The notes beneath the pieces were generated by a model. That model did not search any database. It was not told the DNA's origin and saw only the letters and a list, made by a program, of their open reading frames with translations. Shown here piece after piece: positions 4,390 to 29,204 of a stretch of 53,318 bases of DNA. Made by a program: the position numbers and the translations under genes. This DNA comes from Bacillota bacterium (lineage in GTDB: Bacteria; Bacillota; Limnochordia; Darwinibacteriales; DTU012), in NCBI GenBank assembly GCA_012837335.1, contig DURM01000078.1, forward strand, positions 1-53,318, in the 5' to 3' direction. Positions within the stretch are counted from its first letter, which is position 1. Every line of letters starts with the position of its first letter.

Positions 4390-4824
4390 ATGCTAATACC
4401 AAGACGTGTAAAGCATCGCCGTGTCCATCGGGGTAGGATGACCGGTAAAGCCAGTCGCGGAGCAAAGATTGATTTCGGCGAATTTGGTTTACAGGCATTG
4501 GAGCCTGGCTGGATAACCAATGCACAAATAGAAGCAGCTCGTGTAGCAATGACTCGTTCAATCAGACGTGGTGGAAAAGTCTGGATTAGAATTTTCCCTG
4601 ATAAACCTGTTACCAGAAAACCTGCAGAAACTCGGATGGGTTCCGGTAAAGGTTCACCGGAGCAGTGGGTAGCAGTAGTTAAACCCGGCAGAATCATGTT
4701 CGAGCTTGCAGGCGTGAGTGAGGAAGTTGCTCGTGAAGCTATGAGATTAGCCGCTCATAAACTGCCAATTAAAACTAAGTTTGTGAGCAGAACTGTGGCG
4801 GGTGGTGATGCACGTGAAGGCTAA
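4390..4824 (+). CDS. rplP: 50S ribosomal protein L16
   Basis: L16 (144 residues), starting [17 protein letters not shown]. It sits by the A-site tRNA and the central protuberance. The conserved [21 protein letters not shown] is present. The frame is open far upstream inside rpsC, but the family N-terminus and the position one base after the rpsC stop decide this ATG. Confidence 0.97.
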
Positions 4825-22817: not shown

Positions 22818-24107
22818 ATGGGGCGATTAAAAACTTTTGGAGCTTGGGTTTTAGTATTCGGACTGCTGCTGTTCGGCATCAGTCAATATTATTTAAACCA
22901 AACATATCGGATGCAGCTGGAAGCGGGGTATCAGCGGGCATTTCGAGAGTTAGCGATCCATGTTGCTGGTTTAGAGACTGAGCTCAGTAAGCTGTTAGTA
23001 AGCAGCTCGCCTAAACTGCAGCTGGAAAGCGCAGCCAACATCCTCCGCTTAGTTTATGCTTCCCAGGCTAATCTTGGGCAGCTGCCGATCAACAGCTTAA
23101 ATCTTACTCGAACCGAAAACCTTCTGGCCGAAATTCAGGCAGCTGCAGTAAATGCAGCTCAAAGCGGTTTTAAGCTTGAAGATAAATTGACCAATCTGTA
23201 TCAACAGGTTCAATATCTTAATGGTGAGCTCCAAACGCAGCTGGCCCTTGGAGAACGGCGGACCAGCTGGGTAGACTGGCGCCGCTATGTCCAGACATCA
23301 ATCTCCCGAGCCGTTGTTGAACCGGATGAGCGCTATCCCCTGATGCAGGCATTAGTCATGATTGAAGATGGCATGGAGCGGTTTGTCGACTCTAATTTTC
23401 CCAGTGAGTTGGGCCGGCTGCAAGGACCGCTGCCTACAGGTGATCCCATTGCCGAAGCCGAAGCTAAGGCAGCTGCCGAGGCATTTCTCCCGGAAGCAGA
23501 AATAAAGCGGGAAGCAGCTGTAACTAATCAGACAGAAGGGCCGCTGCCTACCTTTACAGTAACCATGACAGCAGCAGACCAAAGTCCGGTAATAATAGAA
23601 GTCTCCAAGCTGGGAGGACATGTTTTATGGATGACTAATCCCCGCATTGTTGAGTCGAATCGGCTCGGTAAAGATGAAATGGTTGAAAAGGCAGAAGCGT
23701 TTCTGAACGAGCGGGGATTTCCCAAGCTGGAACTGATAGAAACAGATTTAAGATTAAATCGCCTGATGTGCAGTTATGCGCTGCTGGAAGACGGAGTAGT
23801 GATTTATCCGCAGCACCTGAAAGTACAGGTTGCCGCGGATAATGGCGAAATTGTTGGTTTCCAGGGTTCAGCCTACCACAGCTTCAAAAACACTAGAGAT
23901 CTGATTCCGAAGCTGACAGCGGCAGAAGCGCAGCAGTTTATTAAGGAATCTGCCGAGATTATAAGCCAGCGCTTGGCGGTAATTCTAGACTCGAATTTTA
24001 ACGAGGTGCTGACTTATGAATTTCGTGTAAACCATGGATCTGATCAATTCTTAATTTACATCAACGCCGCTGATGGCGCAGAAGTAAAAATCACCCGGAT
24101 CGAGTAA
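22818..24107 (+). CDS. ypeB: Germination protein YpeB-like
   Basis: A 429-residue protein starting MGRLKTFGAWVLVFGLLLFG, a membrane anchor. The N-terminal region (to about 190) is helical, followed by PepSY-like repeats with ITRIE-type ends (about 230-429). In Bacillus YpeB stabilises SleB in the spore and is cut during germination. ATG 22818 follows GGTTAGGAGTGGGATA. The 3' end overlaps the convergent dnaE gene by 17 nt. Confidence 0.88.
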   Translation: MGRLKTFGAWVLVFGLLLFGISQYYLNQTYRMQLEAGYQRAFRELAIHVAGLETELSKLLVSSSPKLQLESAANILRLVYASQANLGQLPINSLNLTRTENLLAEIQAAAVNAAQSGFKLEDKLTNLYQQVQYLNGELQTQLALGERRTSWVDWRRYVQTSISRAVVEPDERYPLMQALVMIEDGMERFVDSNFPSELGRLQGPLPTGDPIAEAEAKAAAEAFLPEAEIKREAAVTNQTEGPLPTFTVTMTAADQSPVIIEVSKLGGHVLWMTNPRIVESNRLGKDEMVEKAEAFLNERGFPKLELIETDLRLNRLMCSYALLEDGVVIYPQHLKVQVAADNGEIVGFQGSAYHSFKNTRDLIPKLTAAEAQQFIKESAEIISQRLAVILDSNFNEVLTYEFRVNHGSDQFLIYINAADGAEVKITRIE

Positions 24108-27100
24108 GGGGCATAATTCTTTCGGCCACAAGACTTACTTCCTTGCCTCCACGGCTGGAAACCGTGCCTTCAACAATTAGGAGAGGATGCTGGTACAGGT
24201 TTTCTCCATAGCGCTGATAAACATTTTCAAATACGGTTACATCAAGAAGTCCAAACTCATCTTCAAGGGTAAGAAAGACGACGATTTTACCGCTGCGGGT
24301 TGGCGGCCGGTGCGGCCGGATTACATAGCCAGCTGTTTTGACTTTAGCTCCTTCTGCCTGCTTCTTAACATCGCGGCTGGAGGCAAACTTTCGCTGCGCA
24401 AGCCGTGGTCTAAAGAAGTCCATTACATGTGTCGAAGCAGATAAATTAAGCACTTCAAATTCTAACATCCACCGCTGCCACGGCGTAAAATCCGGCAGCG
24501 CCTGTTCTTGAGCTGATTCTAAAAGAAAGAGACTGCCCTGCCTGTTGCTAAGATAATTGGGCAGCTGCCATAACAGAGAGCGGCGGTTTGGGGTAAAACT
24601 ATCAAAAGCGCCGGCTAGAATCAGGTTTTCGATCACATCTTTACTCACATTTGTGCGGAATACAAAATCCGATAGGGCAATAAAAGGCTGCTTTTGGCGC
24701 TGGGCAAGAATCGAATCAATAAATTTGGCCTCCATGCCTTTGACCTGTTTTAAGCCGATTCGGATGGAATTGTCATCAGCTGTGAAATCAGCCTCGCTTA
24801 GATTGATATCAAGGGGCAGAATGGTAATGCCCCGCTGGCGCGCCTGGACGCACAGGGTGTTCGGCGGATAAAAGCCCAGCGGCTGGTGATTGAGCAGGGC
24901 TGCGTAAAACTGAGCCGGATAGTGTTTGAGCAGATAAGCGGTTTTATAAGCGGTATCGGCAAAAGCTGCCGCGTGGGCTTCGCAGAATCCATAGCCGGCA
25001 TAGCCCAAAATATAAGAGAAGATGATTTCGGCGGTTTCTTTACTGACACCATTAGCAACCGCTTTGCTGATAAAAAGCTCGCCGATTTGGTCCATCTCAT
25101 TTTGAGAGCGGAATTTCGACATGACTCGGCGCAGCCGATCCGATTCTCCCGGAGTGAAGCCGGCGATCTCGGTGGCAATTTCAATTACCTGCTCCTGATA
25201 AAGCACCACACCGTAGGTATCTTTGAGGATCGGTTCCAGCTTGGGATGAATATAAGTGGGCCGTTCTAACCCGTGACGGCGGGCGATGAACGGTTCAACC
25301 ATGTTGCCCTTGATCGGTCCGGGGCGGATGAGAGCTACGCTGGCTACAATATCCTCAATATTGTCAGCTAGAAGCCGCGCCTGGAGATTGCGCTGGGCCG
25401 GACTTTCTAACTGAAAAACGCCGACAGTATCACCGCTGTTCAGCATCTGGTAAGTTGCGGCATCATCTAAAGGAATTTGGTCATAGCTGAAATTATGCTC
25501 TGCTTTCAAAGCTGTGTCCACCTCATGCACAGCCGATAATGTTCGCAGCGAGAGGAGATCAAGTTTAATCAAACCCAGATCTTCAATGGTATTTTTATCG
25601 AACTGAGTAATCAGCACTCCCTTGGCGGAAGGCTGGAGCGGAGTAACCGCATTCAAAGGCGGTCCGCTTACCACCATACCGCCTAAATGGGTTCCCATAT
25701 GGCGGGGAATACCGGTTAACTGCTCACACAGATCGATAAGCTCGCGGTACTGCTCCTGTTTGAGGGGATGATTCTTAAGCTCCGGCAGGGTTTTCAAAAC
25801 CTTGCGGATTCCATCGGCCGGAATGTAGGAAGGAATATTGCGGGTCAGCTGCTTAATTTCCCCTTCGCTCAAGCCGAAAGCTTTGCCCAAATCCCGCAGT
25901 GCAGAGCGGGCATGGTAGGTTGCAAAAGTGCAGACGGAAGCAGTGTGCTCTTCGCCATATTTTTCATAAACATAGGCAGCGATTTGATCTCTTTTGGCCG
26001 CATCAAAATCCACATCGATATCAGGCTTGCGGGCCTGTTCAAGGCTTAAAAATCGCTCAAACAAGAGATTGCGGGCAATCGAATCAACATTTGTAATGCC
26101 TAAACAGTAAGCAACCGCAGAATCTGCGGCAGAACCGCGCCCCGCGTAGCGAATATTATTTCTGCGGGCATAGGCGGTAATATCCCAGACCACCAGAAAA
26201 TAATCATTGACATCCAGCTGGTCGATAATGCTGAGCTCATGATTTAAGCGCTTTTCAATCCTAGGAGTGATTCTGCCATATCTCTTCACCGCTCCCCGGA
26301 AGACCAAGTGCCGCAGCAGCTGTCCGGCGGAACGGAATCCTTTTGGCAGGGGATACCTGGGAAAAAGATTGCGGTCAAGTGTTAAGGAAACTTCGCAGCG
26401 CTCCGCTATTTCTTTGGTGTTGGCAATCGCCTCAGGGTATTGTCTGAACCTCTGCGCCATTTCTGCCGGTGAAGCAAAATAGTTCTCTGCATTTAACGGC
26501 CGCTCAGGATGAATGTCGTTCAGCTGAGTTAAAGTTCGGGCGCAGACCATTAAATCATACAGCCGGAAATCATGTTTAGCAAGGTAATGCACATCATTGG
26601 TGGCAGCGAGAGGAAGCTTAACATGCTCGCTTAGTTCGGCAATTGCTGCCAAAACAGTCTTGGTTTTCGGCAGATAGCTGTTGATCATCTCCAAGTAAAT
26701 GTTTTCTCGGCCGAAAATCCCGATCAGCTTCTTTACATGCTCAAGCGCCGCCTGGTATTTTCCCCTGAGCAGCGCCTGCCACAGGGCTGACCGGCGGCAG
26801 CCGGTGAGCACCAACAGACCCTGATGGCAGGCGGACAGATCTTCCCAGGTGACGATGGGCTGTTTGCGGTCTACTTGGAATCCGGCGGTAAGCAGCCGGC
26901 AGATGTTCTGATAGCCCAAGCTGTTTTGGGCTAACAAGGTGAGGTGATATCCGCCTTCGATCGTGATTTCTACCCCTTGAATCGGCTTAATTCCCAGCGC
27001 AAGAGCTGTTCTATGAAATTCTACCGCGCCGCTGACATTATTGTGATCGGTTAAAGCTACTGCCGGGATGCCGAGTTCGGCGGCCCGTTCCAGATATGCG

Positions 27101-27162
27101 GTGGGCGAAGCAGTGCCGCTTAGAAAAGAATAAAAGGAGTGCACATGTAAGTGGGCAAACAT
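24091..27162 (-). CDS. dnaE: DNA polymerase III alpha subunit, DnaE2-like (translesion)
   Basis: A C-family polymerase of 1023 residues. The PHP domain begins FAHLHVHSFYSFLSGTASP; the palm has GRGSAADSAVAYCLG (about 342-355) and the catalytic Asp triplet in PDIDVDFD (380-387); GYGFCEAHAAAFADTAY and a C-terminal OB fold (about 925-1010) follow. The length is shorter than replicative DnaE1 and fits DnaE2. It follows an ImuB-like gene and a LexA-type promoter, so error-prone repair synthesis is the best reading; a replicative role cannot be excluded. ATG 27162 is six bases from AGGTG; ATG 27168 and GTG 27171 are also in frame. Confidence 0.88.
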   Translation of the reverse strand: MFAHLHVHSFYSFLSGTASPTAYLERAAELGIPAVALTDHNNVSGAVEFHRTALALGIKPIQGVEITIEGGYHLTLLAQNSLGYQNICRLLTAGFQVDRKQPIVTWEDLSACHQGLLVLTGCRRSALWQALLRGKYQAALEHVKKLIGIFGRENIYLEMINSYLPKTKTVLAAIAELSEHVKLPLAATNDVHYLAKHDFRLYDLMVCARTLTQLNDIHPERPLNAENYFASPAEMAQRFRQYPEAIANTKEIAERCEVSLTLDRNLFPRYPLPKGFRSAGQLLRHLVFRGAVKRYGRITPRIEKRLNHELSIIDQLDVNDYFLVVWDITAYARRNNIRYAGRGSAADSAVAYCLGITNVDSIARNLLFERFLSLEQARKPDIDVDFDAAKRDQIAAYVYEKYGEEHTASVCTFATYHARSALRDLGKAFGLSEGEIKQLTRNIPSYIPADGIRKVLKTLPELKNHPLKQEQYRELIDLCEQLTGIPRHMGTHLGGMVVSGPPLNAVTPLQPSAKGVLITQFDKNTIEDLGLIKLDLLSLRTLSAVHEVDTALKAEHNFSYDQIPLDDAATYQMLNSGDTVGVFQLESPAQRNLQARLLADNIEDIVASVALIRPGPIKGNMVEPFIARRHGLERPTYIHPKLEPILKDTYGVVLYQEQVIEIATEIAGFTPGESDRLRRVMSKFRSQNEMDQIGELFISKAVANGVSKETAEIIFSYILGYAGYGFCEAHAAAFADTAYKTAYLLKHYPAQFYAALLNHQPLGFYPPNTLCVQARQRGITILPLDINLSEADFTADDNSIRIGLKQVKGMEAKFIDSILAQRQKQPFIALSDFVFRTNVSKDVIENLILAGAFDSFTPNRRSLLWQLPNYLSNRQGSLFLLESAQEQALPDFTPWQRWMLEFEVLNLSASTHVMDFFRPRLAQRKFASSRDVKKQAEGAKVKTAGYVIRPHRPPTRSGKIVVFLTLEDEFGLLDVTVFENVYQRYGENLYQHPLLIVEGTVSSRGGKEVSLVAERIMPLTRSG

Positions 27163-27180: not shown

Positions 27181-27420
27181 TCAATCATAAATTTTATAAA
27201 GCACCCAGCGGGATTGATCAGGATAATGGTGCAGCTCGAATAAAACCGCCTCTGAAATAACCCGGTAAACATGCAGCTCCGGTTCCTCCAGCCACCACTG
27301 CCCGGATTCCCGCCAGTATTCTGCGATTAGGTCTATTTTGTACGGGCGCTGGTAGATAAAGGCTTGGGGTTTATTCGCGGCGGTTTCAACGGTGATCTCG
27401 CTGTTGATGATCTTAGAGAT
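27181..27420 (-). CDS. Small DUF6504-like protein with no canonical start codon
   Basis: The 240-nt gap between the ImuB-like gene and dnaE is fully open on the minus strand from a TAG at 27439-27441 to TGA 27181-27183, yet contains no usable ATG, GTG or TTG. The translation has IYQRPYKIDLIAEYWRESGQ, then WWLEEPELHVYRV, LFELHHYP and a final WVLYKIYD. This pattern (WRE.G.WW, then FEL, then W.L..IYD) recalls DUF6504 proteins, which sit between imuB and dnaE2 in Actinobacteria. ATC 27420 lies seven bases after GGGAG and is my best start (79 residues); ATC 27411 or a frameshift from imuB are alternatives. Confidence 0.6.
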   Translation of the reverse strand: MSKIINSEITVETAANKPQAFIYQRPYKIDLIAEYWRESGQWWLEEPELHVYRVISEAVLFELHHYPDQSRWVLYKIYD

Positions 27421-28351
27421 AGGACTGCTCCCACATGGCTAAGATTTTTTCGCGGCGGGATGGTTTTAGCTGCACCAAAACACTGCTGAGCTGGGATTTT
27501 AAAGAAACAATTTTTCGACTAGTAGGATTTTCCCCAAAGATGTCTAATTGTTTATGTAGATGAGGAGCAAGATCCAACCCGGATATTTGTATTTGATCAA
27601 TCGGTTCATTGGGAATGGCTACCAGTAAAGAGCGATAAAATACATCCTGCTCTGCAGTGGGTGGATCAAAGCGGCGGATTGCAGTAAAATTTGTTCCGTT
27701 CTGCCGCCAGTCCAGGCGGATTTTAGCCGCAAGCAGCCGCCGGGAACGAAGCTGCTCAGCCACTGCGGTTAAACCCTGCCGCAGAAACAGCTCCAGCTGT
27801 GGTTGGCCCACTGGAGAAGCGATTTCTGGATCGGTCAAGAAATCGAACTCCCAATGAATTTTGATTGGTTTATCCGGAGTAAAGGGTTTGGGATCCTGAC
27901 CGCGGGCAATTTTGGCAAGCATTTCTGCATCACTGCCAAACTGGAGTCTTAAAGATTTTAAAGGCACTTGGGCCAGGGCTCCGAATGTATCGATCCCCAG
28001 CTTATTAAGCTGGGAAGTCTGCGGTAGATCCAGTAAATTAAGGGATAAGCCAGCAAGAAATGCGCTGCTTTCTGATCCCGGGATATAGGTATTTGCGCGG
28101 GTCAAGGCGGCTAGTTTAGCAATTATCTTACTGGCACCGGCACCCCAGATACCCGCAAGATAATTCTGCTTCAGCCGTGTTAGAAATTGAGCACCAAATT
28201 CAGCCGGCGCAAAGTGTTCTGGAAGACGGCAGTACCAAGTACAGGGCGTTTCAATTTCAATCTGTTCGGTCCAGCTGCGGCAGAACTGCAGCAGGTGTTC
28301 TCGCTGATCGGCTTCAATTGCTGCCCTGTTAATCTGACAGTAGACGATCAT
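27413..28351 (-). CDS. ImuB-like degenerate Y-family polymerase protein
   Basis: A 312-residue protein from ATG 28351. Residues 60-160 match the Y-family fingers/thumb: AGIWGAGASKIIAKLA, a helix-hairpin-helix-like NKLGIDTFGALAQVP and FGSDAEMLAKIARGQDP. The N-terminal catalytic palm, with its Asp and DE residues, is missing or shortened, so it is unlikely to be an active polymerase. QLDIFG at 268-273 looks like a beta-clamp-binding motif. ImuB is the inactive adaptor of the ImuA-ImuB-DnaE2 mutasome; no ImuA is seen nearby. It overlaps the small downstream ORF. Confidence 0.8.
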   Translation of the reverse strand: MIVYCQINRAAIEADQREHLLQFCRSWTEQIEIETPCTWYCRLPEHFAPAEFGAQFLTRLKQNYLAGIWGAGASKIIAKLAALTRANTYIPGSESSAFLAGLSLNLLDLPQTSQLNKLGIDTFGALAQVPLKSLRLQFGSDAEMLAKIARGQDPKPFTPDKPIKIHWEFDFLTDPEIASPVGQPQLELFLRQGLTAVAEQLRSRRLLAAKIRLDWRQNGTNFTAIRRFDPPTAEQDVFYRSLLVAIPNEPIDQIQISGLDLAPHLHKQLDIFGENPTSRKIVSLKSQLSSVLVQLKPSRREKILAMWEQSYL

Positions 28352-28367
28352 TTTCACCAACCCCTTA

Positions 28368-28418
28368 CGAACATATGATCGCAAATCAATTGTAATACAG
28401 AACACTTGTTCGCGTCAA
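28368..28418 (-). promoter_or_regulatory. LexA-controlled promoter of the translesion cassette
   Basis: On the minus strand TTGACG (28418-28413) and TACAAT (28394-28389) are 18 nt apart. A perfect LexA/DinR palindrome, GAAC-ACTT-GTTC (28400-28411 on plus), fills the spacer. A second near-match, CGAACATATGATCG (28368-28381, one mismatch to CGAAC-N4-GTTCG), lies just downstream. Repressor bound here would block polymerase, so SOS induction is expected. The region also lies upstream of the divergent PhnP-like gene. Confidence 0.85.
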
Positions 28419-28445
28419 GTGGTTAATTATGCCAGGAGGATAGAA

Positions 28446-29204
28446 GTGAAAATAACGTTTTTGGGAACCGGAACATCCCATGGTGTGCCGGTAATTGGAT
28501 GTAATTGTGATGTCTGTCAAAGTAAGGATCCGCGCAATCAGCGCACTCGTTCGTCAATTTTAATCGAAACTAAGGGTTTGTCCTTATTAGTCGATACTGC
28601 TACCGAATTTCGTCTGCAGGCGCTGCGGGCAGGCATCAGCACAGTTGATGCTGTGCTGTACACCCACTGCCACGCAGATCATGTCTTTGGTTTTGATGAT
28701 TTAAGGATTTTCAGCCAGCGCTCAGGTAAAGCGGTGCCTTTTTACGGTAATAGGGAAACCATCGAGGAAATGCTGCAGGTGTTCAGCTATGTTTTCCGCA
28801 AAACTCAAATCGGGGGTGGAAAACCGCAGGTGGAGCCAAACGTGGTTGATGGTCCCTTTCAGATTAAGGATTTGACGGTGATTCCAATCCCGATTTTCCA
28901 CGGTAATCTGCCAATTTACGGCTATCGGATTGGCGATATGGCTTATATTACCGACTGCAGTAAAATTCCGGAGCCATCGCTTGAGCTGCTATCGGGCTTA
29001 AAAGTCCTGATTTTAGGAGTAGTGCGCTACGAGCCTCATTCAACGCACATGCATGTTGACGGAGCTTTGGAGCTGATCAGCAAGCTCAAGCCGGATCAGG
29101 CTTATTTTACTCATCTTTCCCATTTGCTGGAGCACGGCGCAGTGAACTCAGAACTGCCGCCGGGGGTATCGCTTGCATATGATGGATTGATAATTGGGAT
29201 CTAA
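28446..29204 (+). CDS. MBL-fold metallohydrolase, PhnP-like
   Basis: A 252-residue metallo-beta-lactamase-fold protein. It starts MKITFLGTGTSHGVPVIGC, followed by C.VC.S.DPRN.R.RSS, a pattern of PhnP-type cyclic phosphodiesterases; the zinc motif THCHADH is near residue 75 and further ligands lie in PIFHGN and FTHLSHLLEH. Substrate unknown. The GTG at 28446 follows CCAGGAGGATAGAA. It is divergent from the LexA-controlled cassette with about 95 nt between start codons. Confidence 0.85.
   Translation: MKITFLGTGTSHGVPVIGCNCDVCQSKDPRNQRTRSSILIETKGLSLLVDTATEFRLQALRAGISTVDAVLYTHCHADHVFGFDDLRIFSQRSGKAVPFYGNRETIEEMLQVFSYVFRKTQIGGGKPQVEPNVVDGPFQIKDLTVIPIPIFHGNLPIYGYRIGDMAYITDCSKIPEPSLELLSGLKVLILGVVRYEPHSTHMHVDGALELISKLKPDQAYFTHLSHLLEHGAVNSELPPGVSLAYDGLIIGI

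Follow-up and report, generated by a model that had tools for sequence, protein, structure and literature searches.

A putative AUC start codon, conserved over six genera, for the standalone ImuB-C gene of a Bacillota mutasome operon

The ImuB-C domain was named by Aravind and colleagues, standalone copies included (PMC3765255), and in published models it contacts the PHP domain of DnaE2, bridging DnaE2 to the Y-family part. In the Kyrpidia tusciae type of iPolY/ImuB-C/DnaE2 operon (DnaE2X group; PMC6511836, PMC12926913), the gene order is the same as at the locus described here, an ImuA paralogue is likewise absent, the operator is of the LexA type, and the standalone ImuB-C is, as here, a beta-barrel without a close solved fold; however, the start at our locus is a putative AUC embedded in the end of iPolY, and iPolY itself is strongly reduced. 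In the ImuA-ImuB-DnaE2 mutasomes, the C-terminal domain of ImuB belongs to the same Pfam family (DUF6504) and is encoded immediately before DnaE2, whereas ImuB-C here is a separate small protein, unfused to the Y-family part. With regard to the start codon, the fixed starts of Listeria rnhC (ATC) and infC (ATT) are near-cognates kept by descent, as proposed here (PMC13068326), but our codon, which two families have retained, lies inside an overlapping upstream gene in an operon for mutagenesis. In the ATA and ATT start mutants of Listeria rsbV-rsbW, the start is also located in an overlapping upstream gene and the weak start lowers the product (PMC13068326), although these are recent strain mutants, whereas the AUC is invariant over six genera. 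A search of the open-licence literature subset found no precedent for an AUC start kept over two families within a mutasome-operon overlap. The novelty here is the start of ImuB-C; standalone ImuB-C and fixed ATC starts (Listeria rnhC) were already known.

The window, i.e., the whole stretch of DNA analysed, comprises 53,318 nucleotides of a Bacillota bacterium (contig DURM01000078.1). On its minus strand, iPolY is followed by a start-less frame and then by dnaE2, with the following features (f1 is the family of the window and f2 a neighbouring family).

27181..27420, minus strand: ImuB-C (DUF6504) coding sequence, 79 codons, from the proposed ATC (27420-27418) to the TGA stop (27183-27181)
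27418..27420, minus strand: proposed start codon ATC, within the last codons of iPolY; the same in 9/9 f1 and f2 genomes
27428..27432, minus strand: GGGAG, Shine-Dalgarno (SD)-like, 7 nt 5' of ATC; invariant in 9/9
27413..27420, minus strand: 8-nt overlap ATCTCTAA between the beginning of ImuB-C and the last codons of iPolY (CTC TAA)
27413..28351, minus strand: iPolY ("imuB"), a Y-family polymerase in reduced, inactive form, beginning at ATG 28351 or, alternatively, at GTG 28357
24091..27162, minus strand: DnaE2, a C-family polymerase of the error-prone type, with a conserved start at ATG 27162
28400..28411, unstranded: perfect LexA box of the Gram-positive type, GAACACTTGTTC, 5' of iPolY
28369..28380, unstranded: second LexA-like box with one mismatch, GAACATATGATC, just upstream of the iPolY start

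We hold with good confidence that the start-less frame is a gene, placed second in an iPolY/ImuB-C/DnaE2 operon of the SOS type and most likely AUC-initiated at 27420 and coupled to the termination of iPolY. The operon itself is of the known iPolY/ImuB-C/DnaE2 type (PMC6511836, PMC12926913). Only one RecA-family gene was found in the genome, and there is therefore no ImuA paralogue. The perfect LexA sequence GAACNNNNGTTC occurred once in the 53 kb scanned, and boxes with one mismatch were no more frequent in this window than expected by chance. The perfect box (28400-28411) is flanked by iPolY on one side and, on the other, by a divergent metallo-beta-lactamase-fold gene (28419-29204, plus strand), which might have the LexA operator in common with iPolY.

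The upstream gene, labelled "imuB" in the preliminary description, encodes a Y-family protein that is reduced and inactive and has no match to the Pfam IMS palm domain. It showed weak Pfam matches to the thumb and little-finger domains and NCBIfam matches to pol IV, and an RREKILAMWE-like block at its C-terminus is conserved. DnaE2 contains the Pfam domains PHP, DNA_pol3_alpha, finger, HHH_6, and OB, and scored 899 bits against the NCBIfam error-prone DNA polymerase model (cut-off 939). The idea that the small frame adds a third conserved part to the mutasome is supported by its conservation and its place in a DnaE2 cassette; such a part was known before, as standalone ImuB-C (PMC3765255, PMC6511836, PMC12926913).

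The stretch between imuB and dnaE proved to be fully open, as had been claimed: the minus-strand frame at 27181..27438 runs from stop to stop over 85 codons (85 amino acids), and its sole ATG, GTG, or TTG is a GTG so close to the stop that a start there would leave only 7 codons. When the window was scanned for start-less frames (at least 60 codons from stop to stop, no canonical start over most of the length and no overlap with larger genes), this frame was the sole result. Conservation greatly exceeded what chance would give: homologues were matched in 53 of 60 related genomes, with a best E value of 2e-38 outside the window's own genome; the genomes of the clade are all metagenome-assembled or similar drafts, and one of them (G001) contains neither an iPolY nor an ImuB-C gene. 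A DnaE gene lies downstream in 66/69 homologous loci, and no viral homologues of ImuB-C were detected in viral contigs or phages. Codon-level comparison across relatives, which had been suggested as a check, yielded dN/dS values of approximately 0.08-0.44 beyond the overlap where synonymous change was unsaturated, synonymous sites being near saturation between genera. This pattern of substitution indicates that the frame is under purifying selection and protein-coding. Frames were intact in close relatives, among which one single-codon insertion kept the frame, and thirteen columns were invariant in 26 homologues and ten in 47. The pattern described as WRE-G-WW / FEL / IYD is real, since the P, F, WRE, G, WW, L, and W columns, including the conserved C-terminal W72, are invariant in the 47 homologues. 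A lack of conservation at the protein level and broken frames in close relatives, which the preliminary description had named as observations against a gene, were both looked for, and neither occurred.

The window protein alone matched Pfam DUF6504 (PF20114) with an E value of 9e-4 and 19.9 bits, below the gathering cut-off of 24.2, and a DUF6504 search of its own genome and an NCBIfam scan gave no useful match for it (under threshold). We nevertheless assign it to DUF6504, as first suspected, because the profile matches 45 of its 47 homologues (best E value, 2.3e-15). In an ImuB encoded on a Sphingobium plasmid, upstream of an error-prone polymerase gene, PF20114 was matched at residues 437-514 (30.2 bits, above the cut-off); because the C-terminus of this ImuB is PF20114, DUF6504 corresponds to the ImuB-C domain of PMC3765255. 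According to the AlphaFold2 model (mean pLDDT, 90.8), the 79-residue ImuB-C is a beta-barrel with seven strands, the first of which spans residues 2-14. Fold searches of the PDB returned no Foldseek match below an E value of 0.5, and the VIA Z scores (5.5 or less) were little informative, in agreement with the lack of a close solved fold reported in PMC12926913.

The GGGAG (27432-27428) located 7 nt from ATC 27420 (27420-27418) was confirmed. The ATC set consists of nine genomes from six genera, eight from f1 (five genera) and one from f2, in which GGGAG-7nt-ATC-TCT-AAR is kept (AGG in one) and the overlap octamer is always ATCTCTAA or ATCTCTAG. With a following G, ATCTCTAA(G) reads Ile-Ser-Lys in the ImuB-C frame and (Tyr)-Leu-stop in that of iPolY, and in the alignment ISKII stands opposite the MSKLI of relatives with ATG or GTG. 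The corresponding position in the other families inspected was occupied by ATG, GTG, or TTG, with a sole exception (L108, ATA). ATC TCT is identical in 9/9, whereas every other column of the first 30 codons is near-cognate in at most 7/9. In the window and in the relatives G004 and G007, the frame is interrupted by a stop six codons 5' of ATC, and a start earlier in this frame was therefore rejected. The codon usage of iPolY points in the same direction. Of its 39 invariant degenerate codon columns, only three hold a single codon in all nine sequences: one GAA, the GAG of the SD, which is kept even though GAA is synonymous, and the CTC that forms ATC. CTC accounts for 11% of Leu codons, and no other invariant Leu column of iPolY holds one codon. 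Because the GAG and CTC columns are each restricted to a single codon, the alignment indicates selection on the SD and start nucleotides beyond the needs of the iPolY protein. The nine ATC sequences are related, eight belonging to one family, and do not represent nine independent events, but this objection is limited by the near saturation of synonymous sites between genera.

The calculated SD/anti-SD duplex has an energy of -6.5 to -7.3 kcal/mol. A GGGA-NNNN-TCCY hairpin can form over the SD (27421-27432 of the window, minus strand), with four pairs in six of the nine genomes, a weaker form in two and none in f2. Predicted SD accessibility was 0.04-0.28 in the ATC genomes versus 0.34-0.60 in the ATG relatives folded. 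Such a hairpin could enforce coupling, or it may be caused by a Ser codon of iPolY. At L108 (L108:4495-4722), from a distant Bacillota metagenome-assembled genome, the ImuB-C frame begins with ATA directly after an in-frame TAA, in an ATAA overlap with the iPolY stop. Two relatives have GTG at this position, and the ATA is possibly a sequencing error, the coverage in the contig name being 2.25.

The most serious rival to AUC initiation is a programmed +1 frameshift at the end of iPolY (CUC UAA; compare CUU UGA in prfB), which would fuse iPolY to ImuB-C and make the ATC merely part of the shift site. ImuB-C does lie in the +1 frame relative to iPolY, the sequence TAT/CAT CTC TAA/TAG is conserved in 9/9, a frameshift signal would also predict conservation of the octamer, and the ImuB proteins of Proteobacteria are fusions of just this kind, e.g., that of Sphingobium with DUF6504 at 437-514. 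However, in prfB the SD is placed 3 nt before CUU, with UGA following, whereas the SD here is 9 nt before CTC, a distance suited to initiation at ATC, and the stop is TAA or TAG. Re-pairing from CUC to UCU is expected to be poor, and a UAA with a purine after it should terminate strongly, both of which count against a shift. In addition, the sister families initiate ImuB-C separately, with ATG or GTG at the same position, and we regard the frameshift as improbable. Transcriptional slippage at the A6 run of iPolY (CGAAAAAATC) was rejected, since this run is not a conserved feature among relatives.

Initiation might alternatively take place at another, non-conserved near-cognate codon further down, such as the ATC or ATT at codons 4, 5, or 9, where Ile codons are frequent. 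None of these three columns is near-cognate in 9/9, though, the SD spacing would be longer, and the modelled first beta-strand would be cut, breaking the barrel, so that a start of this kind seems very improbable. That the frame is a decaying or unexpressed ImuB-C relic left after loss of the start codon is scarcely credible: a canonical start is indeed absent and weak initiation expected, but purifying selection extends over six genera, frames are intact in 9/9, the motif residues are invariant, and ImuB-C is absent together with iPolY in G001.

Initiation at AUC with reinitiation after iPolY thus remains the most likely route, judged from the sequence comparisons. The ribosome would terminate iPolY translation at the overlapping UAA, be held there by GGGAG, and reinitiate with fMet-tRNA at the AUC five bases upstream of the iPolY UAA; following published models of its role, ImuB-C would then bridge DnaE2, via the PHP domain, and iPolY-RecA. 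The ribosomes of the clade accept a near-cognate, because infC starts at ATT in these genomes (L059, L060, L045, and further infC loci), a trait common to many bacteria. AUC, which is very rare as a start codon, forms a third-position mismatch with the initiator anticodon CAU. A low yield is to be expected from AUC, because IF3 rejects weak third-position pairs in vitro (PMC10158994), and a Listeria gene that overlaps its neighbour was expressed only very weakly from an ATT start (PMC13068326).

The persistence of so weak a start is probably explained by the overlap, which would lock the AUC in place because iPolY needs its last Leu. The C-terminal residue of iPolY is Leu in all nine genomes, a feature shared with members of families f4, f5, and, in some cases, f3 that have no ATGA overlap. 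The third base of the proposed start codon is the first base of this last Leu codon; ATG, GTG, or TTG would place a G there and change the Leu to Val, and would be closed as long as Leu is kept, and ATT would require a TTA or TTG Leu codon, altering residue 2 of ImuB-C. The f1 arrangement could have arisen by a small deletion removing an ATG, as a comparison with the overlap of an f4 member (TATCTTTAACCAATGAGTAAG) suggests. In the DnaE2 tree, the f1 clade was supported at 99/96, the positions of f2, f4, and f5 were not settled, and a single clade of all ATC rows was not rejected (p-AU, 0.32), making a single origin of the ATC rows possible. A more tentative and rather unlikely proposal is that the AUC start was selected because it holds ImuB-C at a low level and couples its synthesis to iPolY termination, so that ImuB-C would be the component limiting how much mutasome is formed after DNA damage; if true, the dependence on iPolY termination would make ImuB-C sensitive to IF3 and to the state of the ribosome.

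Several related loci differ in arrangement. In Armatimonadota (L113, L116, L117, L123, L124, L126, L127, L129, and L130; at approximately 4470-4760 in most), a WREAGEWW-type segment shares a reading frame with DnaE2, to which it adds approximately 100 residues at the N-terminus, in ORFs of approximately 1170-1325 amino acids where complete. The three extensions tested had no match to Pfam DUF6504, and the segment may be a partial ImuB-C or merely a common motif. In the group L085 and L091-L095, ImuB-C and dnaE2 are approximately 1.2 kb apart, and in L091 the gap is occupied by a gene in the opposite orientation (L091:4760-5788, minus strand) that reads as a tryptophanyl-tRNA synthetase. On a plasmid of Thermaerobacter, DUF6504 is likewise encoded by a standalone gene (L142:5004-5255), and the 10 kb displayed contain no polymerase gene.

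The locus offers a clear comparative case of a putative bacterial AUC start kept over six genera, for which the need for Leu in the overlapping codon would be a simple explanation. Gene callers limited to ATG, GTG, and TTG will miss the ImuB-C gene here, and surveys of mutasome composition would therefore record a false absence of ImuB-C in these bacteria. The operon also provides a natural setting in which to test how ribosomes reinitiate at a weak start and how dosage is controlled in error-prone repair.
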